From the IMG/VR virus record IMGVR_UViG_3300035661_000025, positions 1-64,000 of that record: a stretch of DNA of 64,000 nt; one strand, written 5' to 3'. Positions 4,813 to 58,979 of this stretch are shown here, in pieces. Made by a program: the position numbers and the translations under genes. The stretch is from a virus. The notes below the pieces were generated by a model. The model had not been told where the DNA came from. It worked only from the letters and a program-made list of their open reading frames with translations, and ran no database searches. Position 1 is the first letter of the stretch. Each line of letters begins with the position of its first letter.

Positions 4813-4981
4813 TTACTTAGCACCTTTTCCTTTTACCCAACCTGAGGAAACTTCATCAAAGAATTTTCTCATTTCTTCCTCATCTAGCTCTGCTGGGCTA
4901 TCCACATTATAAGATTTCAAAATATTCTTGATATTCTGTTTTTAAGTCTTTTTCTTCTACGATTAAATCTTTGAATTTCAT
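4813..4981 (-). pseudogene. Frameshifted small gene with capsid-targeting-like start
   Basis: On the minus strand ATG 4981 (overlapping the o-spanin stop as TAATG) reads MKFKDLIVEEKDLK, like other capsid-targeting starts here (I-V-E site), and then hits a stop. Shifting frame by one base at the A5 run near 4938-4942 gives a continuous NIKNILKSYNVDSPAELDEEEM-type reading that ends at 4813 in GWVKGKGAK, a pattern typical of small phage proteins (about 55 aa if the run had four A). Either a real frameshift mutation, a homopolymer sequencing error, or a +1 frameshift; no classical slippery site is seen. Confidence 0.5.
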
Positions 4982-5313
4982 TACTTGTCTTTTTTGTTTA
5001 ATTCATTTACTTTAACATTAAAATCATTAATTGATTTTAGCAACAAATTATATTCTTTTCTTAAAGCACTAACTTCTTCCATATTTTCATAAAAATTATC
5101 AGGATTTTGAATGATTAAGGTTTGTTTATCATCTAACTCTTGCACCCAATACTTATAAGTAATAGGTGGCTTTTCAGAAAATACACTAGTGTCAAATGTA
5201 GGTCTGTATAAATCATCTTGAGGACATTGTACATCTGTATTACAAAATAATGAGCAACATCCAGTAAATAAAAATGGTAGACTAAATGCTACGAGTAATT
5301 GAATTTTTTTCAT
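4981..5313 (-). CDS. Outer-membrane spanin lipoprotein (o-spanin, Rz1-like)
   Basis: 110 aa with a lipoprotein signal peptide: basic MKK, hydrophobic core and lipobox FTGC (Cys19). Mature part has Pro segments and a C-terminal helix (EEVSALRKEYNLLLKSINDF). It begins inside the i-spanin gene (32-bp overlap), the classical Rz/Rz1 arrangement. With the i-spanin it would fuse inner and outer membranes at lysis. RBS AAGGA before the ATG. Confidence 0.85.
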   Translation of the reverse strand: MKKIQLLVAFSLPFLFTGCCSLFCNTDVQCPQDDLYRPTFDTSVFSEKPPITYKYWVQELDDKQTLIIQNPDNFYENMEEVSALRKEYNLLLKSINDFNVKVNELNKKDK

Positions 5314-5677
5314 TCAGTTTTCCTTTAAGTTGATTTGAACAATTTGAATCCAATGGAGTAATTGTTTTATTGGAGTCATCTATTCGTATGACTTTGATTT
5401 CGGTTCTAACTTTTTCTATAATAGTAGTTTTTTCTTTAGCTGTTTTTAAATCATATTGATGTTGGTAATCTTTGAACTCATCTTCTTTCTCTTTTATTTT
5501 TTTATAATATTCTAAATTATTTTTTTGAATATTTACTTTATATTCATTAAATTCATTTTGAGTAGATTTTAGTTCCATTTTTAAAATACCTATATATCCT
5601 AAAACAATAACTACAATACTTCCTATAATTATCTCAGTTTTGTATTTGTTAAAAAATAACGAAAACACAGTGTACAT
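5282..5677 (-). CDS. Inner-membrane spanin (i-spanin, Rz-like)
   Basis: 131 aa with one N-terminal membrane segment (about residues 13-32, EIIIGSIVVIVLGYIGIL), a long periplasmic coiled coil rich in Lys/Glu and a C-terminal LDSNC motif like that of Rz proteins. Follows the holin gene directly (stop and RBS AAGGGG adjacent) and contains the o-spanin start in another frame. Confidence 0.85.
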   Translation of the reverse strand: MYTVFSLFFNKYKTEIIIGSIVVIVLGYIGILKMELKSTQNEFNEYKVNIQKNNLEYYKKIKEKEDEFKDYQHQYDLKTAKEKTTIIEKVRTEIKVIRIDDSNKTITPLDSNCSNQLKGKLNEKNSITRSI

Positions 5678-5926
5678 TTATTCCCCTTTGTTTAGACCAG
5701 GATCATCTGAAGTTGCTTTAGTTCCTGTATAAAAACCAATAGCAGTACCTGCCAATCCTGCAAAAATTCCGTAGTATCCTAAATAACCATCTACAGGTAT
5801 CTTGTAAATAATCATTAATAATACTACAACTGATACTAATAAGAAAGTAAACACTACAGAAAAAAGAATAAGTTTTCTAGCCCGTGTTACATCCTTTTCA
5901 GTCCACTCAATTAATGTTTCCATCAT
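5678..5926 (-). CDS. Putative holin
   Basis: 82 aa, two membrane segments (roughly residues 20-44 and 52-72) with a short loop containing a conserved-looking PVDGYLGYYGIF and a hydrophilic tail. First gene of the minus-strand lysis operon, upstream of the spanins. The ATG at 5926 is preferred over the one at 5941 because AAAGGA lies just before it and the late promoter at 5955-5962 would leave almost no leader for 5941. Holin or pinholin class cannot be told from sequence. Confidence 0.7.
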   Translation of the reverse strand: MMETLIEWTEKDVTRARKLILFSVVFTFLLVSVVVLLMIIYKIPVDGYLGYYGIFAGLAGTAIGFYTGTKATSDDPGLNKGE

Positions 5927-5936
5927 AGTGTTTCCT

Positions 5937-5964
5937 TTCATAAATATTGATAATTATTTATGAA
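5937..5964. promoter_or_regulatory. Divergent late promoters within an inverted repeat
   Basis: Two 10-base arms, TTCATAAATA (5937-5946) and TATTTATGAA (5955-5964), separated by 8 bases. Each strand therefore presents CATAAATA, a T4-late-like element: one facing the lysis operon, one facing the permease gene, each about 20 nt from a start codon with a good RBS. Confidence 0.6.
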
Positions 5965-5974
5965 AAGGTTGATT

Positions 5975-6973
5975 ATGGATTTTACTGTATTTTATAATGG
6001 GCAAGAATTTGTATTATTTTTAGTGATAATAATGATTACTACTAATATAATTAAAGAAAATATGCTTATGATAGATCTTTTAGGAGTGTTTGGAAAATAT
6101 ATAAAAAATACAAAAATAGCAGTATTTTTGACGTCTATGTTTTTTGGTATATTGCCTATTCCTGGTAGAATAGTGTTAGGTAGTTCTATGATAAATTCAT
6201 TGTCTAAAGAGAAAATGAGTTACAAAATAGGTGTGTTAGAATATTTGAGCACCCATCATTATTATTTTTGGTCACCTTTAGAAAAAACTGTAATAGTTCC
6301 TATGAGTATATTAGGGATAAGTTATGCATATTATATAAGCGTGGTTTGGCCTGTTATATTATTGAGCATTTTATTTTTGGCTATTTATCTATGGTTGTTT
6401 ATAAAAGAAGAAGATATTAACATAAAATTTCCAACACAATTTCTGTGGAAGAATATTTTCTTATATGTTTTGCCTATTCTTATCTTTATTCTCATTATCT
6501 TCTTCACAGAAATGTTAGTATTAAGTTCAGTGGGTTTATTGTTATATTATTCATTTATGGTAAAATTGTCATTTGAAGATTTAAAACGACATATAAACTC
6601 CATAAATTTTAAGCTGATTTTTTTATTAATGAGCACCATAGTTATTGGAAACATAATAAAAGAATCTGGCTTCAATATAGTGGATCAAAAATTATTAATA
6701 TCTGCTCTTATTGTATCATTTGTATATTCATTTTTATTAGGATCTTCATCAAAATATGCAATGATTAGTGCTTTATTAATTAGCGCTTTTGGTTTAGAAT
6801 ATATGTTGTTATTTTTAGTAGTCGATTTTGCTGGATATATTCTTTCTCCCACTCACAAATGCTTTTGGGTCGCATTAAGTTATTATGAGATACAAGTTAA
6901 AAAATTTGTTTTTGTTATAGTATTATGGTTAAGTATTTTGTTGTTTTATTCAATAATTCAACTTTTATTATAA
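5975..6973 (+). CDS. Polytopic inner-membrane protein, permease-like (DUF401-like)
   Basis: About 332 aa with nine or ten hydrophobic segments. The pattern FFGILPIPGRIVLGSSMINSL and STHHYYFWSPLEKTVIVPMSILG recalls the DUF401 integral membrane family related to ion/organate permeases, including a second GSSSKYAMISALL and DFAGYILSPTHKCFW repeat. Substrate unknown. Start ATG 5975 is chosen because AAAAGG (5963-5968) precedes it; ATG 5960 lies inside the promoter. Transcribed divergently from, and probably at the same late time as, the lysis genes. Such a transporter is unusual in a phage. Confidence 0.7.
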   Translation: MDFTVFYNGQEFVLFLVIIMITTNIIKENMLMIDLLGVFGKYIKNTKIAVFLTSMFFGILPIPGRIVLGSSMINSLSKEKMSYKIGVLEYLSTHHYYFWSPLEKTVIVPMSILGISYAYYISVVWPVILLSILFLAIYLWLFIKEEDINIKFPTQFLWKNIFLYVLPILIFILIIFFTEMLVLSSVGLLLYYSFMVKLSFEDLKRHINSINFKLIFLLMSTIVIGNIIKESGFNIVDQKLLISALIVSFVYSFLLGSSSKYAMISALLISAFGLEYMLLFLVVDFAGYILSPTHKCFWVALSYYEIQVKKFVFVIVLWLSILLFYSIIQLLL

Positions 6974-9895: not shown

Positions 9896-10423
9896 ATGAA
9901 AACATTTGAAGAGTATATGATTTTGGAAGAAATCCTAAAGATAGGGAACGCCGAAGATTATCGAAAATCTGGAGTTGATAAAAGAGATGATTTAACTAAA
10001 GACATTCATGATAAAGATATCAATGACACTAAAGATTCTTTAGAAAGTTATCGGGTGGGTGTAGTAAATGGTATCACTATATTTAAATCCATCCACGCTC
10101 ATGAAATTAGAGATGGTGAAGGATTACCTAGAGATTATGGATTGACTGATGAAGATGTGCTGAAAATTTTTGAAAAATTATTTTTAAAACCAGCTTATAA
10201 TCCAAAAAACAAAACCATGGTTGCTTATAAAAATCATAAAGGTAAATTTGATTTGATGGTTATCTCTCCATTAGAATACAAATACATAAAAATCATAACT
10301 ATCATACAAGGTAATAAAAATCGTAGCTATGATTATTTTACACAATCTCATCTTAAAGACCAGAAAGCCATTATAGAAAGCTCCGATTTAAATGGAGTTC
10401 AAGATTTTTTAATTATAGAATAA
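9896..10423 (+). CDS. Capsid-targeted hypothetical protein
   Basis: 175 aa starting MKTFEEYMILEE, again an aromatic-rich targeting peptide with I-L-E. The middle is Asp/Lys rich (DKRDDLTKDIHDKDINDTKD), the C-terminus a mixed domain. No enzyme motif seen. One base after the previous gene. Confidence 0.55.
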   Translation: MKTFEEYMILEEILKIGNAEDYRKSGVDKRDDLTKDIHDKDINDTKDSLESYRVGVVNGITIFKSIHAHEIRDGEGLPRDYGLTDEDVLKIFEKLFLKPAYNPKNKTMVAYKNHKGKFDLMVISPLEYKYIKIITIIQGNKNRSYDYFTQSHLKDQKAIIESSDLNGVQDFLIIE

Positions 10424-10432
10424 AGGAAAATG

Positions 10433-10588
10433 ATGAAAATCCAATACATTGGAAATGATGCTTACGAAATAACATCTTATGATAATCAAACGATAACTCT
10501 TACTAAAGATGAATTTTACGAATGCGTTCAGACAATAAATGAGTTAGAACAAGCATATATAAACAGCATTATGAATCGAAAGGTTTAA
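10433..10588 (+). CDS. Small hypothetical protein
   Basis: 51 aa (MKIQYIGNDAYEITSYDNQ...). AAAGGA at 10422-10427 suits the second of two adjacent ATGs. The stop abuts the next ATG. Function unknown. Confidence 0.5.
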   Translation: MKIQYIGNDAYEITSYDNQTITLTKDEFYECVQTINELEQAYINSIMNRKV

Positions 10589-11083
10589 ATGCAAAATAAA
10601 CACCATATACGAATGAAACAAGCTATAGAAACTGCTAAAAATTCTAAATGTATGTCAAGACATGTTGGGGCTTTGATTGTAGTTGAAGATAGAATAGTAT
10701 CAGAAGGATACAATGGTACTCCTAAAGGTTATGTAAACTGTAATGTCAAATGGAATAACATATGGCATGCTGACCATCATGAATGGTCAAAAACTCATGA
10801 AATACATGCAGAAATGAATGCAATTAATTGGGCAGCCAGAAAAGGTATCAAAATTGAAGATGGGGTTATGTATTGTACTACTAAGCCTTGTTTAGAATGT
10901 ACTAAAAATATTATAGCTGTTGGAATTAAAGCGGTTTATTGGTTGACTAAATATGAATATAATGAAGATCATATTTTGGATTCTTTTTTCAAGGAAAATA
11001 ATGTAATTTGTGAGCAAGTATTTTTACCAGAAGATTCTGATTATAGTATGATTTACGGCAATAAAGGAATTAAAGTAAAATGA
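10589..11083 (+). CDS. cd: dCMP deaminase
   Basis: Makes dUMP from dCMP for thymidylate synthesis. Zinc and catalytic motif HAEMNAI (about 72-78) and PCLEC (about 99-103), preceded by SRHVGALIVVEDRIVSEGYNGTPKGYVNC, the usual dCMP-deaminase N-terminal pattern. Works in line with ThyX at 19049. Its stop overlaps the next ATG. Confidence 0.92.
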   Translation: MQNKHHIRMKQAIETAKNSKCMSRHVGALIVVEDRIVSEGYNGTPKGYVNCNVKWNNIWHADHHEWSKTHEIHAEMNAINWAARKGIKIEDGVMYCTTKPCLECTKNIIAVGIKAVYWLTKYEYNEDHILDSFFKENNVICEQVFLPEDSDYSMIYGNKGIKVK

Positions 11084-11301
11084 GAAGAATCATAACTGAA
11101 GTTCGATATGTAGAATATTATGACATTCCGGATGAAATAACAGATGATGGGATAATTGATTACATAAAAGACAAAAGTAGTAAAATTCAGATAAAATCAT
11201 CAATTAATATATTAAAAGCATCTTCTATAGAAGAGGATAACTTTATTGAATTGCCTGAAGATATTTTGTTTGATTTAGATAATGGTATTAATGATTATTA
11301 A
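11080..11301 (+). CDS. Hypothetical protein
   Basis: 73 aa, acidic (MRRIITEVRYVEYYDIPDEITDDG). Overlaps the deaminase by ATGA. No motif recognised. Confidence 0.55.
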   Translation: MRRIITEVRYVEYYDIPDEITDDGIIDYIKDKSSKIQIKSSINILKASSIEEDNFIELPEDILFDLDNGINDY

Positions 11302-11310
11302 TAATCTATT

Positions 11311-11333
11311 CTTAAGATATTTGATGATATAAT
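11311..11333 (+). promoter_or_regulatory. TTTAAG-class promoter
   Basis: CTTAAG (11311-11316), 11-bp spacer, TATAAT (11328-11333), before the secreted-protein gene at 11360. Confidence 0.6.
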
Positions 11334-11359
11334 TAAATATAAAGAAAAGAAGGATACAC

Positions 11360-11665
11360 ATGAAAAAAATTACTGTTATGTTGTTCATAGCTGTTACTCT
11401 AAATGCTGGATGGTTTGGTAATAATGTAGAGAATTCTCTAGAAAATGTTAAAAAATTTCAATGCAAAAAACTAGAAGAAAGTATCCGAAATGATCTTAAC
11501 TTGCTACAAACTGAAAACTCTAAAGATGTGTATTCAAATGCTTTGTTTCGAGTTGAAAAAAACATTCCAATTATGGGAATGAAATGCGACAAAGATTATT
11601 CTGATTTACAACCATTGATTCGAGATATTCGTGATATGGTTTCAAGAACTACGGTTGAGCAATGA
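11360..11665 (+). CDS. Small secreted protein
   Basis: 101 aa with a Sec signal peptide (MKKITVMLFIAVTLNAGWFG, cleavage probably after Ala16). Mature part has two Cys (FQCKKL, MKCDKD) able to form a disulfide in the periplasm. No family recognised. Overlaps the next membrane protein gene by ATGA, so the two are likely co-expressed in the envelope. Confidence 0.6.
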   Translation: MKKITVMLFIAVTLNAGWFGNNVENSLENVKKFQCKKLEESIRNDLNLLQTENSKDVYSNALFRVEKNIPIMGMKCDKDYSDLQPLIRDIRDMVSRTTVEQ

Positions 11666-12132
11666 GATTCATAGATCAAAATCTCATTGAAAATGAGTCT
11701 ATAATTTATAACTCAAGAGTTCATTATTTTGTATATGAAGAATCTTTGTTATGGGGTTTAACATTTTTACTTATAGTTACCTTGAGTTTGATTTATAGTA
11801 ATGCATTAATTTATTTAGGAATGATGTTTTCATTTATAGCAGCTATTTATGCTTTTGTAGATGCGTTTATTCAAAGACATTTTACCGAAATATCAATAAC
11901 AAACCAGAGATTGATTGTAAAACGAGGTTTGATAAAAAGAGATGTTTTTGAAATTCCGTTAAATCGAATTGAAAGCGTTAATATAAATCAAAATATAATT
12001 GGACGCTTTTTAGATTACGGCTCTATCGATGTAAAAGGTGTTGGGACCGGTCTGGATAATTTATCTATGATTGACAAACCATTTTTTCTCAGAAAAGTTC
12101 TGTATAATAATATATCATCAAGCTTAATTTAA
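11662..12132 (+). CDS. Membrane protein with bacterial PH (bPH2-like) domain
   Basis: 156 aa: two adjacent membrane helices (about 28-70) followed by the bPH2/YdbT-type signature FTEISITNQRLIVKRGLIKRDVFEIPLNRIESVNINQ and GRFLDYGSIDVKGVG. The family is common in bacteria and rare in phages; role unknown. Its pairing with a secreted protein suggests an envelope function. Confidence 0.75.
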   Translation: MRFIDQNLIENESIIYNSRVHYFVYEESLLWGLTFLLIVTLSLIYSNALIYLGMMFSFIAAIYAFVDAFIQRHFTEISITNQRLIVKRGLIKRDVFEIPLNRIESVNINQNIIGRFLDYGSIDVKGVGTGLDNLSMIDKPFFLRKVLYNNISSSLI

Positions 12133-12149
12133 GAATTATATGATATAAT
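12128..12149 (+). promoter_or_regulatory. TTTAAG-class promoter
   Basis: TTTAAG (12128-12133), 10-bp spacer, TATAAT (12144-12149). Confidence 0.65.
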
Positions 12150-26242: not shown

Positions 26243-27340
26243 ATGATCTTAGTAGACTATTCGCATTTATCTTCACGGAATTTGTACACTGCATTATCAC
26301 AAGCAAAACCTAAAAAAGATAAAGAAACAAAAAAGTTTTTAACCGAAGATTTCATACAATTTTATAAACATTTAATGCTAAATTCCCTGAGATTAATTCA
26401 GAAAAAATATCAAAAAATGTATGGTGAAATAGTGTTGTGTTTAGATGTTCGTGGCACTAACTGGAGAAAAGAAATATTTCCAGATTACAAAGCGCAGCGA
26501 GCAAAAGGTCGCGAAGAATCTGATATAGATTTTGAAAGTTTTTATAAAGAATCTAATAAATTTGTAGAAGAAATTGGTCAAATATTCCCATATAAAATCC
26601 TTGGAGTTCCAGGAGCAGAAGCTGATGATATTATAGCAACTTTGGCAAAATACTCTAAAGAAGCTACTTTAGTAATCTCATCAGATAAAGACTTTAAACA
26701 ACTATTATCATTAAACAATGTTGAGTTGTATGATCCGATTAAACTTAAAAAAATAACTATGTCAAAAAATGAATTATCAAAATGGATGACTGAACATATT
26801 TTGTTAGGAGATTCTTCTGATAATGTTCCTAATATAAAACAAGGAACAGAATTCAGCGATGCATTTTTAGCATACATCAAATCCAAAGACATTCATGTAT
26901 CTAAAGTTGACGAATTTAACAAATTGACCATTTCAAAAAAATTATATAGCGAATTTACTGTAGAAAAGAAATTTAAATCAGGACCTAATAAAGGTAAACC
27001 TACAGGAGAATTAGATATATTCAAAACTGTTCCTTTTGGAGAAAAAGCTGTTGAGAAATTTGCATTCGATCTTAAGGAAAGTTTAAAAGAGCATCCAATG
27101 TATCAGGTTAATTATGACCGAAATAAAACATTGGTTTTATTTTCAGAAATTCCTAAAAAAATTGAAGATGCAATCATAAAAAGTTTCTCAGAAACAGAAT
27201 TGTGTTACAACAAAAATAAATTACTTATGTTTTTGGGTGAAAACAATCTAGTAGAATTAGCTAGAAATGTCTCTGATTTTTATCTAGATGAAAATCAATT
27301 TAACGTAACAGAAAGTTCCAGTCTTGATGATTGGTTATAA
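26243..27340 (+). CDS. rnh: RNase H / 5'-3' exonuclease (T4 Rnh type)
   Basis: FEN-family nuclease that removes RNA primers. Start MILVDYSHLS with metal Asp, LCLDVRGTNWRKEIFPDYKAQR, GVPGAEADDIIATLAK and ISSDKDFKQLL motifs. 365 aa versus 305 in T4; extra length is at the C-terminus (helix-rich, ends DDWL, possibly a clamp/gp32 contact). Confidence 0.9.
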   Translation: MILVDYSHLSSRNLYTALSQAKPKKDKETKKFLTEDFIQFYKHLMLNSLRLIQKKYQKMYGEIVLCLDVRGTNWRKEIFPDYKAQRAKGREESDIDFESFYKESNKFVEEIGQIFPYKILGVPGAEADDIIATLAKYSKEATLVISSDKDFKQLLSLNNVELYDPIKLKKITMSKNELSKWMTEHILLGDSSDNVPNIKQGTEFSDAFLAYIKSKDIHVSKVDEFNKLTISKKLYSEFTVEKKFKSGPNKGKPTGELDIFKTVPFGEKAVEKFAFDLKESLKEHPMYQVNYDRNKTLVLFSEIPKKIEDAIIKSFSETELCYNKNKLLMFLGENNLVELARNVSDFYLDENQFNVTESSSLDDWL

Positions 27341-27381
27341 AAATAATGTTAAAAGCTGATGATAATTACTCAGTTAAAGGT

Positions 27382-27405
27382 GATCAAAGAAACGGTTCTT
27401 TGATC
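27382..27405 (+). terminator. Perfect hairpin after rnh
   Basis: GATCAAAGAA (27382-27391), loop ACGG, TTCTTTGATC (27396-27405): 10 bp perfect stem, no long T tract. Terminator, attenuator or RNA-processing site. Confidence 0.5.
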
Positions 27406-27469
27406 TTCATGAAATGGATTGTTTAAAGACAGTTCATATAAACAATTAAAATTAAAAAAAGGTATAAAA

Positions 27470-27679
27470 ATGGAAGAAAAAGTATTTGTATTAGACGGCG
27501 TTACATATGAAACAGAGAGTTTGCCGGAGCAAGCAAAACAAGTATTTGCTACAATTATTCAAGTTCAAGAAAAACAACGTCTTGAAAATATTATCCATAG
27601 CGCAGCTATTCAAGCATTAACAATTGAATTGTCATCTTTGAAAGATCAATTCACTGTAGCAACTCCTCAAGAAGATTGA
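27470..27679 (+). CDS. Small phage protein (DUF6447-like)
   Basis: 69 aa. EEKVFVLDGVTYETESLPEQAKQVFATIIQVQEKQRL... has the layout of small phage proteins that start with a 'V-x-G-x-x-Y-x-x-x-x-L-x-x-x-A-K' strand-turn-helix. ATG 27470 has AAAAAGG upstream. Ends overlapping the convergent gene by 13 bp. Confidence 0.6.
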   Translation: MEEKVFVLDGVTYETESLPEQAKQVFATIIQVQEKQRLENIIHSAAIQALTIELSSLKDQFTVATPQED

Positions 27680-28110
27680 TCTTCAAATTTCTTTATAATA
27701 TGTTCTACAACTTTAGGTTTTAACCACACTTTTCGGTGTGGATTAAAATATGGTGTATAATCAAAATAATGATGAGCTTGGGTTAATTCAATTAAAACAT
27801 AAATTTCAGTTTGATCTTTATAATCATTGATTAATTTTAAAGTAACATCATCTAACTCATCTTTGATGGGTACTTTTTGTTTAGGATTAACTACATTAAA
27901 TGCATTTATTAAATTATTAATGCTGAATTTTATACCCTGAATAATCGCTATTTCAAAGCAAGCGAAAGCTATTTCATATGAGTTAATTTCATTAAATCGT
28001 GTGGATTCATAAAATAACTTTTTAAGATTAGTTTCAGATAATTCATTCTTATGAGATTTATAATACTCCGTATTCATAAACTCCATTAATATCAAATCAA
28101 ATCGTTTCAA
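27667..28110 (-). CDS. Hypothetical protein
   Basis: 147 aa minus-strand gene, helical, no motif recognised. Has AAAAGGA before its start and AATAAATA on the minus strand at 28144-28137, so probably late. Confidence 0.55.
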   Translation of the reverse strand: MKRFDLILMEFMNTEYYKSHKNELSETNLKKLFYESTRFNEINSYEIAFACFEIAIIQGIKFSINNLINAFNVVNPKQKVPIKDELDDVTLKLINDYKDQTEIYVLIELTQAHHYFDYTPYFNPHRKVWLKPKVVEHIIKKFEDQSS

Positions 28111-28136
28111 GTTAATCCTTTTAATTATATTAAATT

Positions 28137-28144
28137 TATTTATT
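28137..28144 (-). promoter_or_regulatory. Late-type element AATAAATA (minus)
   Basis: 27 bp before the minus-strand gene ending at 27667. Confidence 0.4.
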
Positions 28145-28154
28145 AAGGTATAAA

Positions 28155-29849
28155 ATGAAAATTTTCTTAAGCATCATCCCAGCAGTTCTATCGGCTGAGA
28201 TTTTGACATTAGATCCAGTACTTGTAGAATCAACTACATATTCACCAATTTCTGAGTATAGAGACAATAAAGTTGATTTTAGCGCTATACAAACTAAAAT
28301 GAACATTCAACAAACTGCACCTGGAATGTATAGCCCGGTAATTCAAGGTCTTCAAGGCGAATTAGTTGGAGTGAAATTTGAAGATGTTATTATGAATAAC
28401 TCAAATTTTAGAAGTGGTCCAAATCAATATTTTTCATGGATACCAAATGAATTTGTAGATTACAAATTGGAAGCAGGCAATGCAATTGGGTTAAGTGTAG
28501 ACTCTCACATTACAGATGTTTCTCAAGTTTATGCAGAATATAGTTCATATGACCAAGGTAGAAAATTAATTGCTACAAAAAAATATGATAACACAACTGT
28601 AGGTTTGAAGTTATATAAAACTGGCGATTATAATAATATTGAACATACTGCATATAACCAAGATGCATTCTTTGTCAAAAATATCACTGGAAACAATACT
28701 TTTATCGCTTTATATAGCACATCATCAGATATTGACCGATTAGATAAATTTATTCAAAGAAAACCATATACATATCTTGACCAAGATTATGTTTTTATCA
28801 AAGATTCATACAAACTAACTAACAACGATACAGTTACAGGAAGTTATCAAAGATTCGTAGAAAATGTAAACGATAATGGAAAAGAAGTTGATTCTACTAA
28901 TAACGTTTATGGAGCTCAATATGTTCATAAATTTGAATCCGGAATTAGCGTTAAATTAATGGATTCATATGAAGATCTTATGTATAATCAAAAAGATTTC
29001 ACTTATAATACAACAACGGCCGGAATTAGTTATAAAAACGAATTATTTGGCATTAAATTGAAATCAAATATTGATGGCATATGGGCTCAAACTACAGACA
29101 AGCAAGATGATGTTACCAAGAATTTTAACACATATAGTTACAATATAGAATTGCAAAAAAATATTGTATATGGAAGTGTAAGAGGTGGATATAAGCTTCC
29201 TACAGCTAACAATCTTTATTATTCAAGAACCACAGGAAAAGGAAATGATGTACCAAATGCGTCATTAATTCCAGAAACATCAAAAACATATTCTTTAGGT
29301 ATTAAAGATGTAATTGATGATTTTACCTACAACATCAGTGGTTATTATATGTATCTTGATAATGCAATATCAAGTGTTAAAGTCGGAAATATATCAGGGG
29401 TAGATCAATATCAAGCCCAAAATGTTGGAGACGGCATGGTTAAAGGTGCTGATGTTACCTTGACATATGATAAAGATTTGTTCGGTTCATTATTTAATTT
29501 TCAATATGTGTATGGAGAAGATGGTTCAGATTATATGAGTAAAATCACTCCGTGGAAAATTTATTGGAAAAATGAGTACAATCATTATTTTGTAACTTGG
29601 AATTATGCTCATAAAGGAATTCACTTATCTAAATCAGATATGAATGATGTAAGAATTGTAAATCCAACTTACAATGAGTACAATAATAAAGGATATAACA
29701 CTATAGATATTGGTTATTCTAATAATTATAATAAATGGTTATATGGAATAACATTTAACAATATATTCAATAATGATGGAAGAGCAATGGGTTCATCAGT
29801 TGATGTTCCAGAACGTAGTGTAAATATTAGATTAGGATATGCTTTTTAA
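28155..29849 (+). CDS. TonB-dependent receptor-like outer-membrane protein
   Basis: 564 aa. Short Sec signal (MKIFLSIIPAVLSA), a TonB-box-like LDPVLVESTTY, then a shortened plug: PVIQGLQGELVGVKFEDVIMNNSNFRSGPNQYFSWIPNEFVDYKLEAGNA corresponds to the 'RG..G..V.V.iDGVR...' and 'IERIEVLRG' region of TonB-dependent receptors. The barrel has alternating Tyr-rich strands and the diagnostic GGYKLPTANNLYY...NASLIPETSKTYSLGIK segment; it ends in Phe (NIRLGYAF), as needed for Bam recognition. Most receptors are 650-800 aa, so this is compact. Substrate unknown. AAGGT before the ATG. Very unusual for a phage. Confidence 0.82.
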   Translation: MKIFLSIIPAVLSAEILTLDPVLVESTTYSPISEYRDNKVDFSAIQTKMNIQQTAPGMYSPVIQGLQGELVGVKFEDVIMNNSNFRSGPNQYFSWIPNEFVDYKLEAGNAIGLSVDSHITDVSQVYAEYSSYDQGRKLIATKKYDNTTVGLKLYKTGDYNNIEHTAYNQDAFFVKNITGNNTFIALYSTSSDIDRLDKFIQRKPYTYLDQDYVFIKDSYKLTNNDTVTGSYQRFVENVNDNGKEVDSTNNVYGAQYVHKFESGISVKLMDSYEDLMYNQKDFTYNTTTAGISYKNELFGIKLKSNIDGIWAQTTDKQDDVTKNFNTYSYNIELQKNIVYGSVRGGYKLPTANNLYYSRTTGKGNDVPNASLIPETSKTYSLGIKDVIDDFTYNISGYYMYLDNAISSVKVGNISGVDQYQAQNVGDGMVKGADVTLTYDKDLFGSLFNFQYVYGEDGSDYMSKITPWKIYWKNEYNHYFVTWNYAHKGIHLSKSDMNDVRIVNPTYNEYNNKGYNTIDIGYSNNYNKWLYGITFNNIFNNDGRAMGSSVDVPERSVNIRLGYAF

Positions 29850-29855
29850 AGATAG

Positions 29856-29877
29856 TTTAAAGTTATTCTGATATAAT
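29856..29877 (+). promoter_or_regulatory. TTTAAG-class promoter (repeat cassette copy 1)
   Basis: TTTAAA (29856-29861), 10-bp spacer, TATAAT (29872-29877). From 29869 to 29910 the sequence is identical to 38286-38327. Confidence 0.65.
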
Positions 29878-29907
29878 TATTGTATAAAAAGAAAAGAAGG
29901 ATAGAAA

Positions 29908-30207
29908 ATGTCAGATAAAATCATCACACAAACAGGTTGGAGTAAATCAAATAAGGGAAATCTTAATAAAATTGATCCAACTGTTTTAAAAGAATTTTGG
30001 GCTAGCATATCAGTTGAATGGAAAAAAGAAACTCTTCTTGAAATTGCGGAAACATTTCGTAGCAAAATAAATGTGGATCGTTTTATTTTATCAATCAATA
30101 AAACGAGCAGCTCAACAAAACTTGATGAAATCATGACTAATTTGTATCTTTGTTCAGAAGATATGTCTACGTTTGGATCTAAGAAAAAATATAACTCACG
30201 TTATTAA
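29908..30207 (+). CDS. Hypothetical protein
   Basis: 99 aa, basic C-terminus; WSKSNKGNLNKIDPTVLKEFWASISVEWKKETLLEIAETF. No motif recognised. Strong RBS GAAGGA. Confidence 0.55.
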   Translation: MSDKIITQTGWSKSNKGNLNKIDPTVLKEFWASISVEWKKETLLEIAETFRSKINVDRFILSINKTSSSTKLDEIMTNLYLCSEDMSTFGSKKKYNSRY

Positions 30208-30213
30208 TTAAGA

Positions 30214-30235
30214 TTTAATGTTCTTATGATATAAT
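30214..30235 (+). promoter_or_regulatory. TTTAAG-class promoter
   Basis: TTTAAT (30214-30219), 10-bp spacer, TATAAT (30230-30235). Confidence 0.6.
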
Positions 30236-30256
30236 ATACAAAAAGAAGGATAGATT

Positions 30257-30487
30257 ATGAATACAATTCTTTATTCAGAGTATAAAAAAACTCACAAACC
30301 AGTCACCTTGAATGATGTTTTAGAAGCTCAATCAGACAATGAATATGTTATGGTTAGCGTAGATGATAGAGTGTATTGTATTACAGAAATAGATCTTAAT
30401 TCCGAAGAATCTTTCGTTTGTATTGACAAAGAATGTAATGAATATACCTTTGCTTTTGACCAAATATCAAAAATAGAAGGTATTTAA
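30257..30487 (+). CDS. Hypothetical protein
   Basis: 76 aa acidic beta-rich protein (VMVSVDDRVYCITEIDLN). Unknown. First of a tightly overlapping run 30257-31672. Confidence 0.5.
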   Translation: MNTILYSEYKKTHKPVTLNDVLEAQSDNEYVMVSVDDRVYCITEIDLNSEESFVCIDKECNEYTFAFDQISKIEGI

Positions 30488-30720
30488 TGAAGCCTTCATT
30501 ACCCAAAGTTATGGCGTTTGTCATTACAGATTTTGATACTGAATTGGGATACATCCGAACTGAGATAGAAGTGGAAGTTCTCACTGTTCATTTTAATACT
30601 GGCAAAATGCGTGTTAGATATTATGCAAACATTTTTAATTCCGGAATGTCAGTAAAAACTGAAGATGTTTCTAATGAACCGTTTATGAAAAAATATGATA
30701 TATTAGGAACCCAACAATGA
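30487..30720 (+). CDS. Hypothetical protein
   Basis: 77 aa, beta-rich (IRTEIEVEVLTVHFNTGKMRVRYYANIF). Overlaps its neighbours by one and four bases. Unknown. Confidence 0.5.
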   Translation: MKPSLPKVMAFVITDFDTELGYIRTEIEVEVLTVHFNTGKMRVRYYANIFNSGMSVKTEDVSNEPFMKKYDILGTQQ

Positions 30721-32704: not shown

Positions 32705-33442
32705 ATGAGTAATTTCATAATTTTAAACAAACCTCATTATTCCACAAACATACAGCGAGAATTAATTCAATTGAGTGATGATGAACTTGCTGAGGAATTA
32801 TTCTATAGTACTGATTGGTTTACGGATGAATTGTTTGAAGCTCGCACAGATTTGTCAATGTCAATAGGAGCAGAATATAGCCGTCTTATGGTTGATTATG
32901 AAAAAATAAACAACATAAAAGAACCTGGAAATGCTATTGGTAGAGGTGTTTTGTATACTCATAATTATCAAGGGAAACTTATGAGATTAATTGATGATAA
33001 ATCCAATAAGTTTTTGGCTAGTTATGAAAAACGATTAAAATTTTTCAATGAGCAAATATCACTTGCTGAAAGTTTTTTTGATGAAGTTATCATAATAGAT
33101 TGTCATTCTTTTGATACACATTATACTAATGTAGTTAACAATACTCCGGGAATGAAACACCCAGATATTTGTATAGGATATAATGAAAAAAATTGTAATC
33201 TGTTGAAAATTCAAGAACTAAAAGAACACTTCAAATCTTTAGGTTATTCGGTTAACTTAAATTTTCCTTTTTCCGGAAGTTATTTGCCTGAATACAATAT
33301 AGAAAATCCTAATGTGTTTACGGTCATGATAGAAGTAAACAAAGATCTTTACATGAGTAAAGATGGATTTGTACCTCTTAAGAAAGATTCTTTTAATAAA
33401 TTAAAAGAAGATATAACTAATGGTATTATGATATTCGCATAA
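32705..33442 (+). CDS. N-formylglutamate amidohydrolase-like enzyme
   Basis: 245 aa. FGase family pattern: SDDELAEELFYSTDWFTDELFEA, SRLMVDYEKI, GRGVLYTH, and the metal motif VIIIDCHSFDTH, then PDICIGYNEKN. Zinc-dependent amidohydrolase of N-formyl or similar amides; how this serves a phage is unknown. End overlaps a convergent gene by 17 bp. Confidence 0.75.
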   Translation: MSNFIILNKPHYSTNIQRELIQLSDDELAEELFYSTDWFTDELFEARTDLSMSIGAEYSRLMVDYEKINNIKEPGNAIGRGVLYTHNYQGKLMRLIDDKSNKFLASYEKRLKFFNEQISLAESFFDEVIIIDCHSFDTHYTNVVNNTPGMKHPDICIGYNEKNCNLLKIQELKEHFKSLGYSVNLNFPFSGSYLPEYNIENPNVFTVMIEVNKDLYMSKDGFVPLKKDSFNKLKEDITNGIMIFA

Positions 33443-35804: not shown

Positions 35805-36716
35805 ATGAAAGAATATCTTCCAAAATTATACAAAAAAATTAATGAAATTGGTTTTAAATTTCATTCAGATATTTTTAAGAAAGCCGTTACAGAAAAAACA
35901 ACTAAATCTGAGTGGGTTGAATTAGAATTGATTTCTTCAAAAACAAACGGACCTATTTTTGAAAGTGAATTCTCTAGATGTATTAAAGATGTGTTAATGA
36001 TAAAAGGCTATCCAAATGATAGTTTTTTTAAATCTGACATTATTCAAGATGTTTTATCATTGTTAGATCACGCATCTGAATTGTTTAAAAGACATGTTTT
36101 TCCAGATGAAGTTTACGAAATCATGGATATTATGAGCCAATACAATACAAAAATGGTAGGCGGCTCTGTAAGAGATATTTTGCTTAATAAATCACCTAAA
36201 GATTTTGATTTTGTAACAGACGCTTCATATAATGAAGTTACAGAAGAATTAACCAAACATGGATATACAATCAAAGAGACTGGTAAACATTTTTTAGTCA
36301 TGATTGCTTCAAAAAATGGATGGGATTTTGAAATTTCTAATTTTCGTAAAGATGGCACATACTCAGATGGTAGACATCCAGAAGCTGTTATGATTGGAGA
36401 TATTTACGATGATGCATTTAGACGAGATTTCACAGTAAATGCTTTGTATTTGGATGTAAAAACATTTAACTTGCAAGACCCTACAGGTCAAGGGCTTGAT
36501 GATTTTCAAGAAAGAACATTGAAATTTGTAGGAAAGCCAAAGGAACGAATTAAAGAAGATTATCTTCGCTGTTTTAGATTTTATCGTTTCCTTGATAAAG
36601 GGTTTGAGCCGGATCCAGTTTCTCTTAGCGCAGTTAGAGAAATATTTTCCGAAGCTATTGCAAAAACATCACCAGAACGTATTCGTGTAGAAATTGAAAG
36701 AATGGTTAAACTATGA
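35805..36716 (+). CDS. CCA-adding enzyme / tRNA nucleotidyltransferase-like
   Basis: 303 aa. Class II head domain: KMVGGSVRDILLNKSPKDFDFVTDA (about 117-140, with the DxD metals), RRDFTVNALYLD, DPTGQGLDDFQERTLKFVG, and RIKEDYLRCFRFYRF, which are the CCA/poly(A) polymerase signatures. An extra N-terminal helical domain of about 110 aa is unlike the host enzyme, and the C-terminal body/tail domains are cut short. Probably repairs 3' ends of tRNA. No tRNA gene is in this window. Confidence 0.88.
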   Translation: MKEYLPKLYKKINEIGFKFHSDIFKKAVTEKTTKSEWVELELISSKTNGPIFESEFSRCIKDVLMIKGYPNDSFFKSDIIQDVLSLLDHASELFKRHVFPDEVYEIMDIMSQYNTKMVGGSVRDILLNKSPKDFDFVTDASYNEVTEELTKHGYTIKETGKHFLVMIASKNGWDFEISNFRKDGTYSDGRHPEAVMIGDIYDDAFRRDFTVNALYLDVKTFNLQDPTGQGLDDFQERTLKFVGKPKERIKEDYLRCFRFYRFLDKGFEPDPVSLSAVREIFSEAIAKTSPERIRVEIERMVKL

Positions 36717-38790: not shown

Positions 38791-39846
38791 ATGACATTAT
38801 ACAAATTCCCAAGTATTGAGCAATTTCGCTCAGTGGTAAAACACGTTCGTGAACGTTCACAATTTGATGGGTTAGATGAAAATAACGAACCAATCTACAA
38901 TCATACAAAGAAAGCACCTAAGCTTATGTTTCACGGAACTACTAAGTTGCACGGAACAAATCATTCAATCGTAATTGATAAAGAGGATGGGTTTTATACA
39001 CAATCTCGGGAACGTATTAGTACACCAGAGAAAGATAATGCCGGTTCAAGTATTTGGTCTCATTCACATAAAGAGCATTTTGAAAAGGTAGTACTACCTT
39101 TTATGGAAGACATGCCAGACGCTAAAACTTGTATCATTTATGGTGAATGGTGCGGTGGCAATATTCAAGCAAAAGTAGCGTTAAATAAACTTCCTAAAAT
39201 GTTTGTTATTTTTGGTATCAAATTCATTAACCATGATGAATCTCAAGAATGGATTAATCTTGAAAATTTTAAAGGTCTTGCTGATTCACTAGCAGATGAA
39301 ACAAAAAATATCTATCACATTGAACAATTTCCTACTTGGGATATTGAAATTGACTTTGAGGCACCAGAAGAAGTTCAAAATAAACTGATTGAATTGACTA
39401 CAGAAGTAGAGAAACGATGTCCAGTTGCATTTAAACTTGGAGTAGACGGTATCGGAGAAGGAATTGTGTGGAAATGTGTTACTGATGTTGACGGTATGAA
39501 AACTCGTGATTTAATTTTCAAGGTAAAAGGTGAAGAACATGCAGGTAAATCTAAAACAAAAGTTCTTGCCCCAGTTGACGTTGAACGGATCAAGAACATC
39601 AATGAACTTGTTACTAAACTAACTCCTGATTGGCGTTTGGAACAAATGTATCAAAACGTATTTGATACATTAAATGGTGGAACTGGTGATATTAAACGTC
39701 TTGGTGAATTCCTTAAAGCGATTGTAGGTGATATTGTTAAGGAAGAATTAGATACAATCACTGCTTCTGGATTTGAAGTTAAAGACTTGACTGGAAATAT
39801 CAATAAAGTTAGTCGTGATTGGTTCATGAAGAAATTAGATATTTAA
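38791..39846 (+). CDS. RNA ligase 2 (T4 Rnl2 family)
   Basis: Seals nicks in RNA duplexes. Nucleotidyl lysine motif TTKLHGTN (Lys52), then FYTQSRERIST, IIYGEWCGGN (motif III), EGIVWKC (motif IV) and LIFKVKGEEH (motif V). 351 aa (T4: 334). With the CCA enzyme and Thg1 it forms an RNA-repair set. Confidence 0.92.
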   Translation: MTLYKFPSIEQFRSVVKHVRERSQFDGLDENNEPIYNHTKKAPKLMFHGTTKLHGTNHSIVIDKEDGFYTQSRERISTPEKDNAGSSIWSHSHKEHFEKVVLPFMEDMPDAKTCIIYGEWCGGNIQAKVALNKLPKMFVIFGIKFINHDESQEWINLENFKGLADSLADETKNIYHIEQFPTWDIEIDFEAPEEVQNKLIELTTEVEKRCPVAFKLGVDGIGEGIVWKCVTDVDGMKTRDLIFKVKGEEHAGKSKTKVLAPVDVERIKNINELVTKLTPDWRLEQMYQNVFDTLNGGTGDIKRLGEFLKAIVGDIVKEELDTITASGFEVKDLTGNINKVSRDWFMKKLDI

Positions 39847-43599: not shown

Positions 43600-44652
43600 A
43601 TGCCAGAAAAATACCACTCATATCGTAACCATATAAAACCTATGCTTATGAGAATAAAAGATGATATTCATCTTAACGGAATAGATGGGGAGTCTAAAAA
43701 ACGAATTTTATATTTAGCTGCAATATTTCATGATATATATAATGTTGCTGGGAATATCAAAAATGAAGAAAACAGTGCTGAATATTTTCTTCATTGTTAT
43801 CATAATAAACAATTCATTTTGCCGGCATTGTTTTTTGAGTCCTCATTTAAAGATAATTTATCTATAAATCATCAGTTTATTGTAAATGCTTATGAAGATG
43901 GTTTTATTCCTTTCAATATAATAGAAAATGTTACTGAAGAAGAAAAAGATAAAATCATTGAATTGATTATGAACACCAAAGATACTTTTAATAAAAGACA
44001 CGGAGATGAACTAGGTCATTATTTTTATTTGCTTGATACTTATATACTCCGAGAGGGATTTTATGATTTAATTCAATATGAACATGGCATTTATAATGAA
44101 TATAAAAACAAATATACTCTTGCTGAATATAAAAAAGGTAGAATTGAGTTCCTGCAAAAATGTCTAGAAGAAATTCAAACAGTAAATGAATATGGAATAA
44201 AACAATTAATAAAATACGTTGAAGAAAGAGATTATGGATCTGTAGGAATTTTTGCTGGATCTTTTAATCCATTTCATATTGGTCATAAAAATGTTCTAGA
44301 ACAAGCAAAACGAGATTTTGATAAAGTTATAGTTATACAAATGCAGGATTTTAATAAACCAGTAAATGAATATCGAATGCCTAAATTGAAAGATTGTTTA
44401 GTAATTACTTCAAATGAGACGTTAGTAAACGTATTTGAAACTTACAAACAAGGACATAGAAGCGCTAGCATAGTTAGAGCTCTAAGAAATGGAGATGATC
44501 TTCAACACGAACAAAACTTGAAATTGGTTGTACATGATTTTAATAAACATGTTAGATTTACATACTATCTTGCGGATGAAGGTTTTAGTCATATCTCATC
44601 ATCTCTTGTAAGATCTCTTCCTGATGATCTGAGAGGAAAATATCTTGTTTGA
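43600..44652 (+). CDS. HD domain fused to PPAT/CoaD-like adenylyltransferase
   Basis: 350 aa. Residues about 1-200: HD-type hydrolase (YRNHI, IFHDIYNVAGN, YFYLLDTYIL). Residues about 215-350: nucleotidyltransferase with GIFAGSFNPFHIGHKNVL (T/H-x-G-H motif), IVRALRNGDDLQHEQNLKL (PPAT-like) and SHISSSLVR (C-terminal ISSxxVR). CoaD makes dephospho-CoA from phosphopantetheine; the related NMN adenylyltransferases make NAD. The LR-x-x-x-D-x-x-x-E pattern favours PPAT. Such a fusion is unfamiliar to me. Confidence 0.75.
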   Translation: MPEKYHSYRNHIKPMLMRIKDDIHLNGIDGESKKRILYLAAIFHDIYNVAGNIKNEENSAEYFLHCYHNKQFILPALFFESSFKDNLSINHQFIVNAYEDGFIPFNIIENVTEEEKDKIIELIMNTKDTFNKRHGDELGHYFYLLDTYILREGFYDLIQYEHGIYNEYKNKYTLAEYKKGRIEFLQKCLEEIQTVNEYGIKQLIKYVEERDYGSVGIFAGSFNPFHIGHKNVLEQAKRDFDKVIVIQMQDFNKPVNEYRMPKLKDCLVITSNETLVNVFETYKQGHRSASIVRALRNGDDLQHEQNLKLVVHDFNKHVRFTYYLADEGFSHISSSLVRSLPDDLRGKYLV

Positions 44653-48090: not shown

Positions 48091-48102
48091 TATTTATAAA
48101 TA
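48091..48102. promoter_or_regulatory. Bidirectional late promoter
   Basis: TATTTATAAATA contains TATAAATA on the plus strand (48095-48102, for the capsid gene) and on the minus strand (48098-48091, for gp4, about 120-nt leader). Confidence 0.55.
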
Positions 48103-55637: not shown

Positions 55638-56411
55638 ATGAAAATTAAAGCTATTGTAAATGTAAATGATCCACGTCAAGATTCATATATCAGATTTCTT
55701 TCCAAATCATTTCCCGAGATGATGAATGAAGAAAATCCAGAAATGTACTTTGTAGTGGGCGGTGATGGCAGCATGCTTCATGCCCACAAGAATTATAATG
55801 AAGCTATCCCGTTTTTTGGAAAAGGATTAGGCACTCTTAATTTCATCATGAACAATTTTGGCAATGATTTTCGTGTTATTGAAGGATTGCTTAATGATAC
55901 ATTAAAACCAACCATTATAAAAACTCCTAAAATTAAAATAATTACAAAATTTCAATCTGGTATGATTGGAGAATATGAAGCAATTAATGATGTTATTATA
56001 GGCTCAGACATTTCTGATTGGAATTCTTTTGAAATCTCTTCTAAGAATGGATCTTTTGAAGAATTTAAATTTAATGGAACTGGTATTTGTGTAAGCACTC
56101 CTTTGGGTTCCTCGGCGTTTAATATGAACAATGGTGGTAAATTATTGCCTATTGACTCTAATCTTTGGAGCATTACATCTGTGGTTTCTAATCATCGAAT
56201 AAATGAATTGATGAAACCACAGAAAGTCAAAATAAAAATTGAATCATTAAGATCAAATCCTACTTTATATGTAGATGGGGTTCCTATTACCGGTTTAGAA
56301 AAAGGTGACAAGGTTTATCTTAAAAAATGTCCGGAATCTTTTCAAATTGCATTTTTGGACCCAAAAGAATTTTTTGCTAAGCGTATGAAATTGCAGCAGG
56401 AGCGAAGATGA
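55638..56411 (+). CDS. NAD kinase
   Basis: 257 aa. Family motifs: FVVGGDGSMLHA (GGDGS, about 41-45), INDVIIGS, GTGICVSTPLGSSAFNMNNGGKLL (the TPTGSTAY-type loop) and LYVDGVPI. Makes NADP from NAD, raising reducing power for deoxynucleotide synthesis. Phage-encoded NAD kinases are not common. GAAGGA RBS. Confidence 0.9.
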   Translation: MKIKAIVNVNDPRQDSYIRFLSKSFPEMMNEENPEMYFVVGGDGSMLHAHKNYNEAIPFFGKGLGTLNFIMNNFGNDFRVIEGLLNDTLKPTIIKTPKIKIITKFQSGMIGEYEAINDVIIGSDISDWNSFEISSKNGSFEEFKFNGTGICVSTPLGSSAFNMNNGGKLLPIDSNLWSITSVVSNHRINELMKPQKVKIKIESLRSNPTLYVDGVPITGLEKGDKVYLKKCPESFQIAFLDPKEFFAKRMKLQQERR

Positions 56412-57714: not shown

Positions 57715-58968
57715 GTGAAAACTGCAGGAAATAGATTTTATTTTGAAGAAATTGTAGCAAATATGATAGATCCTACAAATAATCTACAATTTTATGCACA
57801 TTTATTGGCTCAATGTAAAATTTCGATGGATAAATCTTTTAGAGCCCCTGCAGGTGTTTATTTTGATACTTATACATATGGTTTGGTTATAAATCCAATT
57901 CTGTTCAATAAATTTACAAAAAAAGAAAAAGTAGCTATTTTAATTCATGAAGCGTTTCATATAGCATACAATCATGTAACAGTTAGAAAAAAAGATGACC
58001 ATGAAAGATGGAATTATGCTACAGATATAGCTATAAATCAGCTAATCAAAGATCTTCCAAAAACAGCTCTTCATTATAGTCAATTTGATTTACCTGCAGG
58101 ATTTTCGGCAGAGCAATATTATATTGCATTACTTGATAATGAGAAATATAATCAGAAAAAAGAGCAAGATGAAAAGCTAAAAAAACAGATGGAAGAATTG
58201 TTTGAAGAAGCAATTAAGAAAGGATCTTTAGATGTAGATTCTGATGAATGTTTTGGAGATGGTTCTGAAATTGATATACCTTTTGATATACCGATTGATG
58301 CTCATGATAAAGAATCAGAAGGGGATGAAGAATATAGAAAAGAAGTTACCAAAAATATGTTAGAAAAAGCCTCTGAAAAATCTAGAGGAAATGAACCAAG
58401 CGATTACGCTGACATGATTTCTTTATATACAAAAAAAGCTGTGGTTGATTGGCGCAAAGAATTGAGACGGATCGTTGGAAACAAAAAAGCAAATAAACGT
58501 AGAACAATCATGCGTCCAGATCGAAGATTCCCTAATAGAGAAGAAATTAAAGGAATAACTAAAGATCGTATATTTGACTTAATTGTAGTCATGGATGTTT
58601 CTGGCTCTATGCAAGACAAAATGTTGGCTGATGGTTTGAATGAAATTAAAGAAATTTGTAAATTGACTAATTCAAATCTAAAAGTTATTCAAGTCGATAC
58701 AGATATTCATGAAGTAACTGAGGTAACAAAAACAACCACTAAATTTAATAGATCAGCTCATGGCGGAACTAGAATTTACCCAGCAATTGAATATATTAGA
58801 GATAATAAAATAGACCACAACGCTATAGTAATAATTAGTGATATGTGGATAGAATCATCAACAGAGTGGAAAATTCCTCCAAAAGTACCTTGTTTTTTCT
58901 TAAACACTTCAGGTAAAGATTGGGATGGATTTTCTAAATTTAAAAATTTTAAAAATTACCGTATATAA
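57715..58968 (+). CDS. Metallopeptidase-like plus VWA domain protein (MoxR partner)
   Basis: 417 aa. N-terminal zinc-protease-like motif LIHEAFHIAYNH (about 76-87), an acidic linker, and a C-terminal VWA domain with MIDAS motif VVMDVSGSM (about 291-299) and DMWIESS. This is the DUF2201-type architecture that usually pairs with a MoxR AAA+ ATPase, whose halves lie at 60737 and 63400. Role probably in protein remodelling or metal insertion, target unknown. GTG start at 57715 with AAAGGA. Confidence 0.82.
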   Translation: MKTAGNRFYFEEIVANMIDPTNNLQFYAHLLAQCKISMDKSFRAPAGVYFDTYTYGLVINPILFNKFTKKEKVAILIHEAFHIAYNHVTVRKKDDHERWNYATDIAINQLIKDLPKTALHYSQFDLPAGFSAEQYYIALLDNEKYNQKKEQDEKLKKQMEELFEEAIKKGSLDVDSDECFGDGSEIDIPFDIPIDAHDKESEGDEEYRKEVTKNMLEKASEKSRGNEPSDYADMISLYTKKAVVDWRKELRRIVGNKKANKRRTIMRPDRRFPNREEIKGITKDRIFDLIVVMDVSGSMQDKMLADGLNEIKEICKLTNSNLKVIQVDTDIHEVTEVTKTTTKFNRSAHGGTRIYPAIEYIRDNKIDHNAIVIISDMWIESSTEWKIPPKVPCFFLNTSGKDWDGFSKFKNFKNYRI

Positions 58969-58979
58969 AGAAGAAAAAA

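Follow-up and report, generated by a model that had tools for sequence, protein, structure and literature searches.

A short-plug TonB-dependent receptor of T4-like phages, its linkage to DUF401 and a candidate import module across two membranes

Marine T4-like phages carry genes for phosphorus acquisition, such as pstS and phoA, the products of which act in the periplasm. The stretch of viral DNA analyzed here (the window; 64,000 nucleotides, positions 1 to 64,000 of IMG/VR record IMGVR_UViG_3300035661_000025) belongs to a 96.4-kb virus record with T4-type genes, and encodes a short-plug TonB-dependent receptor (28155..29849, + strand) and a predicted DUF401 inner-membrane transporter (5960..6973, + strand). 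As in the cyanophages with pstS and phoA, host-type nutrient genes are found in a T4-like phage, but they here concern an outer-membrane receptor and an inner-membrane transporter rather than periplasmic proteins. The best explanation of these genes, to which we assign a probability of about 0.6, is a phage-encoded auxiliary import module that spans two membranes and is powered by the TonB of the host. Phosphate acquisition has been mentioned as a phage function (PMC11360552), and our literature search for phage-encoded TonB receptors or for an import module of this kind found no paper; the linkage of the receptor to DUF401 and the outer-membrane slot described below appear to be undescribed.

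Flavobacterium has TonB-dependent transporters, several with phosphatases as neighbors, whose induction is specific to phosphate depletion (PMC8115612). These low-phosphate transporters, including PusCD, share the TonB receptor fold with the phage protein, as do short-plug receptors of Sulfurimonadaceae, which fall in the same clade (100/100) as the phage genes. The Flavobacterium proteins differ in having mostly full plugs (PF07715) and SusD or lipoprotein partners and, unlike the phosphatase-side bacterial receptors, the phage gene is without an adjoining phosphatase of the PhoX, PhoD or PF04185 families or TonB/ExbBD and is instead paired with DUF401. Other sequenced phage barrels of the TonB type are A0A8D9FQQ5, annotated as "TonB-dependent receptor SusC", and phrog_5687, which are longer (805 residues and 760 positions, respectively) and of a different family (11% identity for A0A8D9FQQ5); a literature search found no study of either. 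No match came from a tblastn search of 50,697 phage records with three of the phage receptors. The receptors of two marine phages (L107 and L194) match neither Pfam nor PHROGs, and the gene is thus easily missed by usual annotation.

The receptor open reading frame (ORF) starts with ATG and specifies 564 residues, of which 81-528 match PF00593 (TonB_dep_Rec_b-barrel) with 49.2 bits against a cut-off of 27 (E 9.7e-13); the C-terminal part of phrog_5687, a phage family without an assigned function, is matched as well. This match, together with a predicted fold of the 22-strand-receptor type, agrees with a preliminary description of the DNA, made from the sequence alone, which had called the product TonB-receptor-like. 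The signal peptide, TonB-box-like segment, PETS motif and C-terminal Phe on which that description relied are all present. By eye, a short signal peptide, MKIFLSIIPAVLSA, occupies residues ~1-15 and a TonB-box-like TLDPVLVES residues ~18-26. A disordered linker extends to residue ~40 (residues 1-40 are disordered in the model), followed by a short plug (~41-119, with its apex FRSGPNQYFSWIP at 85-97) and the barrel (~120-564), which includes PETS at 373-376 and ends on Phe 564 in an alternating hydrophobic pattern of the outer-membrane beta-signal type. Of the plug order "RG..G / IPNEF" proposed earlier, IPNEF is found (96-100), whereas the canonical RG is replaced by Q-G (QGLQG, 64-68).

The plug domain PF07715 has no Pfam match in the receptor, and the alignment with a full-plug relative begins only at receptor residue 51, which corresponds to residue 72 of the relative. 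Residues 51-120 align with the C-terminal two thirds of the relative's PF07715 plug and are modeled as strands and a helix, which by this alignment makes the receptor's plug a reduced one. The shortening noted in the preliminary description therefore stands, but not as a phage-specific reduction, as the chromosomal receptors of Sulfurimonadaceae are equally short. Decay of the plug within the phage was likewise rejected; the short plug is inherited, because the bacterial kin share it and the plug is the best-conserved region.

The AlphaFold2 model, built from an alignment with 62 homologues, consists of a small plug and a barrel of ~22 strands (predicted local distance difference test 84.6; predicted template modeling score 0.85), with a DSSP count of 22-24 strands that hinges on the hairpin at 405-423. 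There are 263 Protein Data Bank (PDB) matches at E ≤ 0.001, and the 50 listed are all TonB-dependent transporters, led by the 22-strand heme receptors ChuA and ShuA (E 4e-21; template modeling score 0.73); a search of the PDB with the receptor sequence gave no match. The match of the modeled fold to TonB-dependent receptors is far above chance, and a barrel other than one of 22 strands, which the preliminary description had named as grounds for abandoning its view, is not what the prediction gives. The likeness to ChuA and ShuA lies in the barrel; they differ in sequence (13-14% identity), in their full plug and in that the phage clade is without a conserved His. The ranking of TonB receptors by fold says nothing specific on substrate. 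In a library of viral proteins, one convincing match was found, the SusC-type receptor A0A8D9FQQ5, which comes from an uncultured marine phage.

The T4-type genes of the virus include gp32, RNase H, a family B polymerase, UvsW, a DnaB-type helicase, topoisomerase II subunits and gp23, with PhoH (64449-65804) and a ligase beyond the window, and the receptor gene sits between gp32/RNase H and the primase. Three further IMG/VR contigs (L002, L003 and L005) have the receptor at the same locus with 83-87% amino-acid identity (L004 is the same virus as the window record), and the GC content at third codon positions (GC3) of the receptor agrees with that of adjoining phage genes. On one side lies a divergent small gene of 147 residues with a TTG start and no assigned function (27667..28110, - strand), which is also present in the sister phages and is 66% identical to that of L005. 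On the other, TTCTGATATAATTATTGTAT (29866..29885, + strand), one of a family of repeated promoter-like phage elements with further copies at 12138, 12944, 38283, 40447 and 55481, comes directly after the receptor and ahead of the gene at 29908. These flanks and the constant locus confirm the gene as phage-encoded, and host contamination, raised earlier as a possible objection, is ruled out along with an assembly chimera by the same locus in other contigs and the phage-like GC3. The repeated element at these six sites, TTTAAG...TATGATATAATTATTGTAT, is mostly followed by a Shine-Dalgarno sequence and a start codon; it is likely an early or host-type promoter family of this phage. When 27300-30600 was scanned for promoters, sites were no commoner than in shuffles and a receptor promoter was not recognizable. 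The host is probably campylobacterial, because gp32 matches Campylobacter phages, with the lowest E-values among the matches listed, and the receptor is nearest to genes of Sulfurimonadaceae. All receptor-bearing phages are known from metagenomes and are uncultured, some of them fragments.

The receptor is under purifying selection, with dN/dS values of 0.07/0.76 and 0.09/0.70 in two comparisons (ratio ~0.09-0.13). Its synonymous divergence of 0.70-0.76 is much lower than the 1.6-2.5 for RNase H and primase in the same phages (NG86 distances, the latter values being near saturation). Nucleotide identity rises from 60-70% to 85-91% within the receptor gene and drops again at the gene ends, a pattern that fits an exchange of the gene body between phages by recombination. 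Variable positions among the sister phages number 23/40 in the N-terminal part and 5/79 in the plug, and reach 19-20% in barrel strands and loops alike, so that within this clade the plug is the most conserved and the N-terminal 40 residues the most variable part. Amid these variable flanking residues, the TonB-box segment is retained in most phage members (TLDPVLVES, TLSPITVES, TLPPIIVDA, TLDPVVVSV, ILDPVVVTA and TLAEITVEA), being weak or absent in L194 by the sequence criterion. The simplest reading of this pattern would be a functional plug and no arms race at the loops. Bacterial origin, a constant locus in the phage lineage and purifying selection are the marks of an auxiliary gene, and the receptor has all three.

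GTDB genomes were scanned with the motif FRxGPNQY, derived by aligning the receptor with a plasmid-located Bacteroidota receptor, and the scan returned two near relatives, in metagenome-assembled genomes of Sulfuricurvum and Sulfurimonas, with full-plug receptors from Planctomycetota, Bacteroidota and other groups next in rank. Two further relatives from Sulfurimonadaceae (G415 and G457) were found, and 397 sampled Campylobacteria genomes held one full-length relative. All four Sulfurimonadaceae receptors have a short plug, are chromosomal and lie beside PhoX, PhoD and/or PF04185 phosphatases; TonB and ExbD genes are present in three of the four clusters, a contig start limiting the fourth. 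Among 80 related loci, which were chosen by the pattern FR[SY]GPNQY, are mostly from Bacteroidota and constitute neither a random sample nor a census, a phosphatase lies at most 4 kb away in 45, against ~0.6% expected from copy number (an expectation based on PF04185, of which 20 of these genomes, 4-9 Mb in size, have at most ~6 copies each). The linkage of receptor and phosphatase among these loci is strong.

The maximum-likelihood tree groups nine phage receptors with the four from Sulfurimonadaceae in a single clade (100/100; n = 13 short-plug receptors), within which the window's receptor clade has the G457 gene as its sister (96/91) and a marine phage group (L107, L194, L195, L196 and L198) stands apart. 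The receptor of a 281-kb virus record (L197, G581), possibly a large Sulfurimonadaceae phage, pairs with the Sulfurimonas gene as its sister (100/99). Phage receptors therefore occupy at least three places among the bacterial ones, which argues for several transfers between bacteria and phages, none of them recent since the branches are long; the long branches in both the receptor and DUF401 trees limit exact placements. The suggestion that the gene was acquired from a host is thus borne out, in that the receptor is ultimately of bacterial origin.

The window's DUF401 protein (PF04165, phrog_14035; 337 residues, with a start perhaps at the ATG at 5975, after AAAAGG) matches PF04165 with 37.1 bits against a cut-off of 24, and is 34% identical to the DUF401 protein of L107, the gene for which is directly upstream of the homologous receptor of that phage. 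A wider scan added phage receptors of 26-29% identity. The DUF401 gene of L107/L193, L194, L195, L196/L177 and L198 ends 63-111 bp before the receptor ORF or overlaps it. The window virus and the 281-kb phage have both genes, far apart, and their rows in the DUF401 tree may join through long-branch attraction. Receptor and DUF401 occur together in four phage lineages, and the receptor records without DUF401 are only fragments of 27-47 kb. The pair is otherwise rare in viral contigs, and marine T4-like phages commonly have DUF401 but no receptor (at least 191 confirmed stretches, and the cyanophages S-CAM4, S-H25 and MbCM1). A plasmid search for bacterial DUF401 found none, and the literature on DUF401 yielded nothing relevant. 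We rejected a captured bacterial operon as the source of the phage pair, because none of the bacterial receptors examined has DUF401 in its vicinity.

Motif matching places CATAAATA, a T4-type late-promoter-like motif, upstream of DUF401 (5939..5946, + strand), and the same motif lies at 5962-5955 (- strand), ahead of divergent lysis genes; it is not over-represented genome-wide. The divergent genes (4981-5941, - strand) form a probable lysis cassette of an 87-residue holin-like membrane protein, a 131-residue inner spanin-like protein and a 110-residue lipoprotein, the last of which belongs to phrog_9385 (Rz-like spanin).

In other phages, the gene after DUF401 often encodes an exported beta-barrel-like protein of ~200 or 289 residues with weak similarity to DUF2490, and the 289-residue outer-membrane-like protein has a TonB-box-like LPPVVVTD. 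Between DUF401 and Dps, receptor and 289-residue gene are swapped gene for gene in phages that are 87-99% identical just upstream (L195 vs L180, L177 vs L173 and L196 vs L178). L195 and L180, for instance, align up to 10000 and resume from 11791, with the receptor gene lying between at 9989-11740. The DUF401 tree interleaves receptor and 289-residue alleles, and a Dps/ferritin gene comes after both versions alike (11 loci with Dps).

These observations can be joined in a mechanism in which, during infection, the phage would make the TonB-dependent receptor, the Sec and BAM machineries of the host would deliver it to the outer membrane, and it would be energized by the TonB-ExbBD of the host, the energy being assigned to the host because the phage is without TonB-ExbBD kin. 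The DUF401 transporter of the phage would then move the cargo through the inner membrane, so that both membranes are served by phage parts, and the infected cell would import a scarce nutrient for virus production. The outer-membrane part would be a modular slot, filled by a short-plug receptor or, in sibling phages, by a different small outer-membrane protein. Altered nutrient uptake had been among the roles put forward in the preliminary description, and it now has positive evidence in the linkage to an inner-membrane transporter, the kept TonB box and the kin beside phosphatases. We would give even odds to the broader statement that lytic T4-like phages and the 281-kb phage carry a dedicated trans-envelope import system, composed of DUF401 and either a TonB-energized short-plug receptor or a small outer-membrane protein that can take its place, by which the infected cell goes on gathering a limiting nutrient once the phage has taken over the host, with the outer-membrane cassette swapped gene for gene.

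A number of observations count against such a module. The receptor and DUF401 of the window are 21 kb apart, with DUF401 beside the lysis genes and its late-type motif, and late expression, if that is what the motif signals, would be late for nutrient import. DUF401 was found neither in 249 Campylobacteria genomes nor near the phosphatase-linked bacterial receptors examined, and neither a phosphatase of the PhoX, PhoD or PF04185 families nor kin of TonB or ExbBD was found in the virus. Finally, the evidence on cargo is in conflict: the bacterial neighborhood speaks for phosphorus, whereas the neighbors of DUF401 in other phages, heme oxygenase with bilin reductase, and Dps after the receptor cassettes point to iron or a tetrapyrrole.

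If there is import, a phosphorus-containing solute is the most likely cargo, at slightly less than even odds, because the bacterial kin adjoin secreted phosphatases and a DNA-making phage needs phosphate; iron or a tetrapyrrole is a weaker candidate, and any other cargo somewhat weaker again. Phosphorus is modestly favored because the closest kin all lie in phosphatase clusters, a conserved heme-ligand His is lacking and the heme-oxygenase DUF401s are separate in the tree. We did not count PhoH toward phosphorus, because a phosphate role of the phage protein is, to our knowledge, unproven. Little or no variation is seen in the plug and its FRSGPNQYFSWIP apex, and the invariant polar or charged residues of the receptor (N82, R86, N90, Q91, Y92, R195, K463, D495, D498 and R500) suggest a polar or anionic ligand.

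The best-surviving rival keeps the module and changes its cargo: the receptor would import heme or an iron chelate, DUF401 would pass it on and, elsewhere, heme oxygenase would free the iron or Dps would store it. In its favor, heme oxygenase is present in 24 of 78 DUF401 loci, and DUF401 overlaps it by a few bases in ~15 viral loci (L123, L127-L129, L134-L136, L144, L157, L158, L161, L162, L171, L172 and L181), with a bilin reductase (PF05996) next in the loci checked; Dps follows the receptor or the 289-residue protein in the 11 loci noted above, and heme receptors lead the structural matches. Heme oxygenase and Dps never occur together in the 78 loci. Known heme receptors use His ligands, canonically in the plug and a loop, and the alignment of the 13 short-plug receptors shows no conserved His, which weakens a heme receptor identity. 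The heme-oxygenase-linked DUF401s also form their own side of the DUF401 tree (99/99), apart from the receptor-linked ones, the window virus yielded no kin of heme oxygenase or Dps, and the fold ranking is not substrate-specific. Iron supply has been discussed as a role of phage hemO (PMC11480375), and hemO is often overlapped by a DUF401 gene that belongs to one phage family with the window's DUF401, but the described hemO-pcyX cassette is without an outer-membrane TonB receptor and the window virus without a heme oxygenase. On balance, we regard an iron or heme module as doubtful. The hemO-pcyX cassette of marine phages may itself contain an undiscussed transporter, DUF401.

Superinfection exclusion or receptor remodeling, in which the phage receptor would replace, titrate or shield host receptors against other phages, was also put forward in the preliminary description, and we consider it unlikely. 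TonB-dependent transporters are common phage receptors and are inactivated by phages, as by Cor acting on FhuA (reviewed in PMC11436027), and the outer-membrane part is swapped as a cassette among close phages, as genes of competition often are. However, the loops vary no more than the strands, conservation is highest in the plug, and a TonB box, which exclusion would not need, is kept, so that positive evidence for exclusion is lacking; the linkage to an inner-membrane transporter would also be left unexplained. The exclusion proteins of such kind known to us are small, either lipoproteins or membrane proteins, and none is a whole receptor. That the gene is a passenger from a host, contamination or a chimera without function for the phage is in effect refuted, for although transfers have occurred, as the scattered phage placements show, the locus is constant, selection is purifying, the GC3 is phage-like and several phage lineages carry the gene.

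Elsewhere in the window, YATAAATA motifs of the T4 late-promoter-like type lie at 48095, 50599, 45801, 40086 and 25130, each upstream of a gene, gp23 (48129) among them. A DUF2201 metallopeptidase/VWA protein, a calcineurin-type phosphoesterase and a Thg1-type tRNA-His guanylyltransferase are encoded in that order at 57715-59711 and 59738-60589; together with an RNA ligase (38791-39846) and a polyA-polymerase-type nucleotidyltransferase (35805-36716), they suggest a rich RNA-processing set. Candidates for auxiliary metabolic genes are N-formylglutamate amidohydrolase-like (32705-33442) and NAD-kinase-like (55638-56411) genes and a nucleotidyltransferase possibly of NAD salvage (43600-44652).

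The nutrient-uptake auxiliary genes known from phages have products that work for the most part in the cytoplasm, the inner membrane or the periplasm. If an import module of the kind proposed here is real, viruses would control entry into the infected cell at both membranes. It would also provide a first functional hypothesis for DUF401, a family common in marine phages that has no assigned function, and a testable explanation for why DUF401 adjoins heme oxygenase, Dps or outer-membrane proteins.
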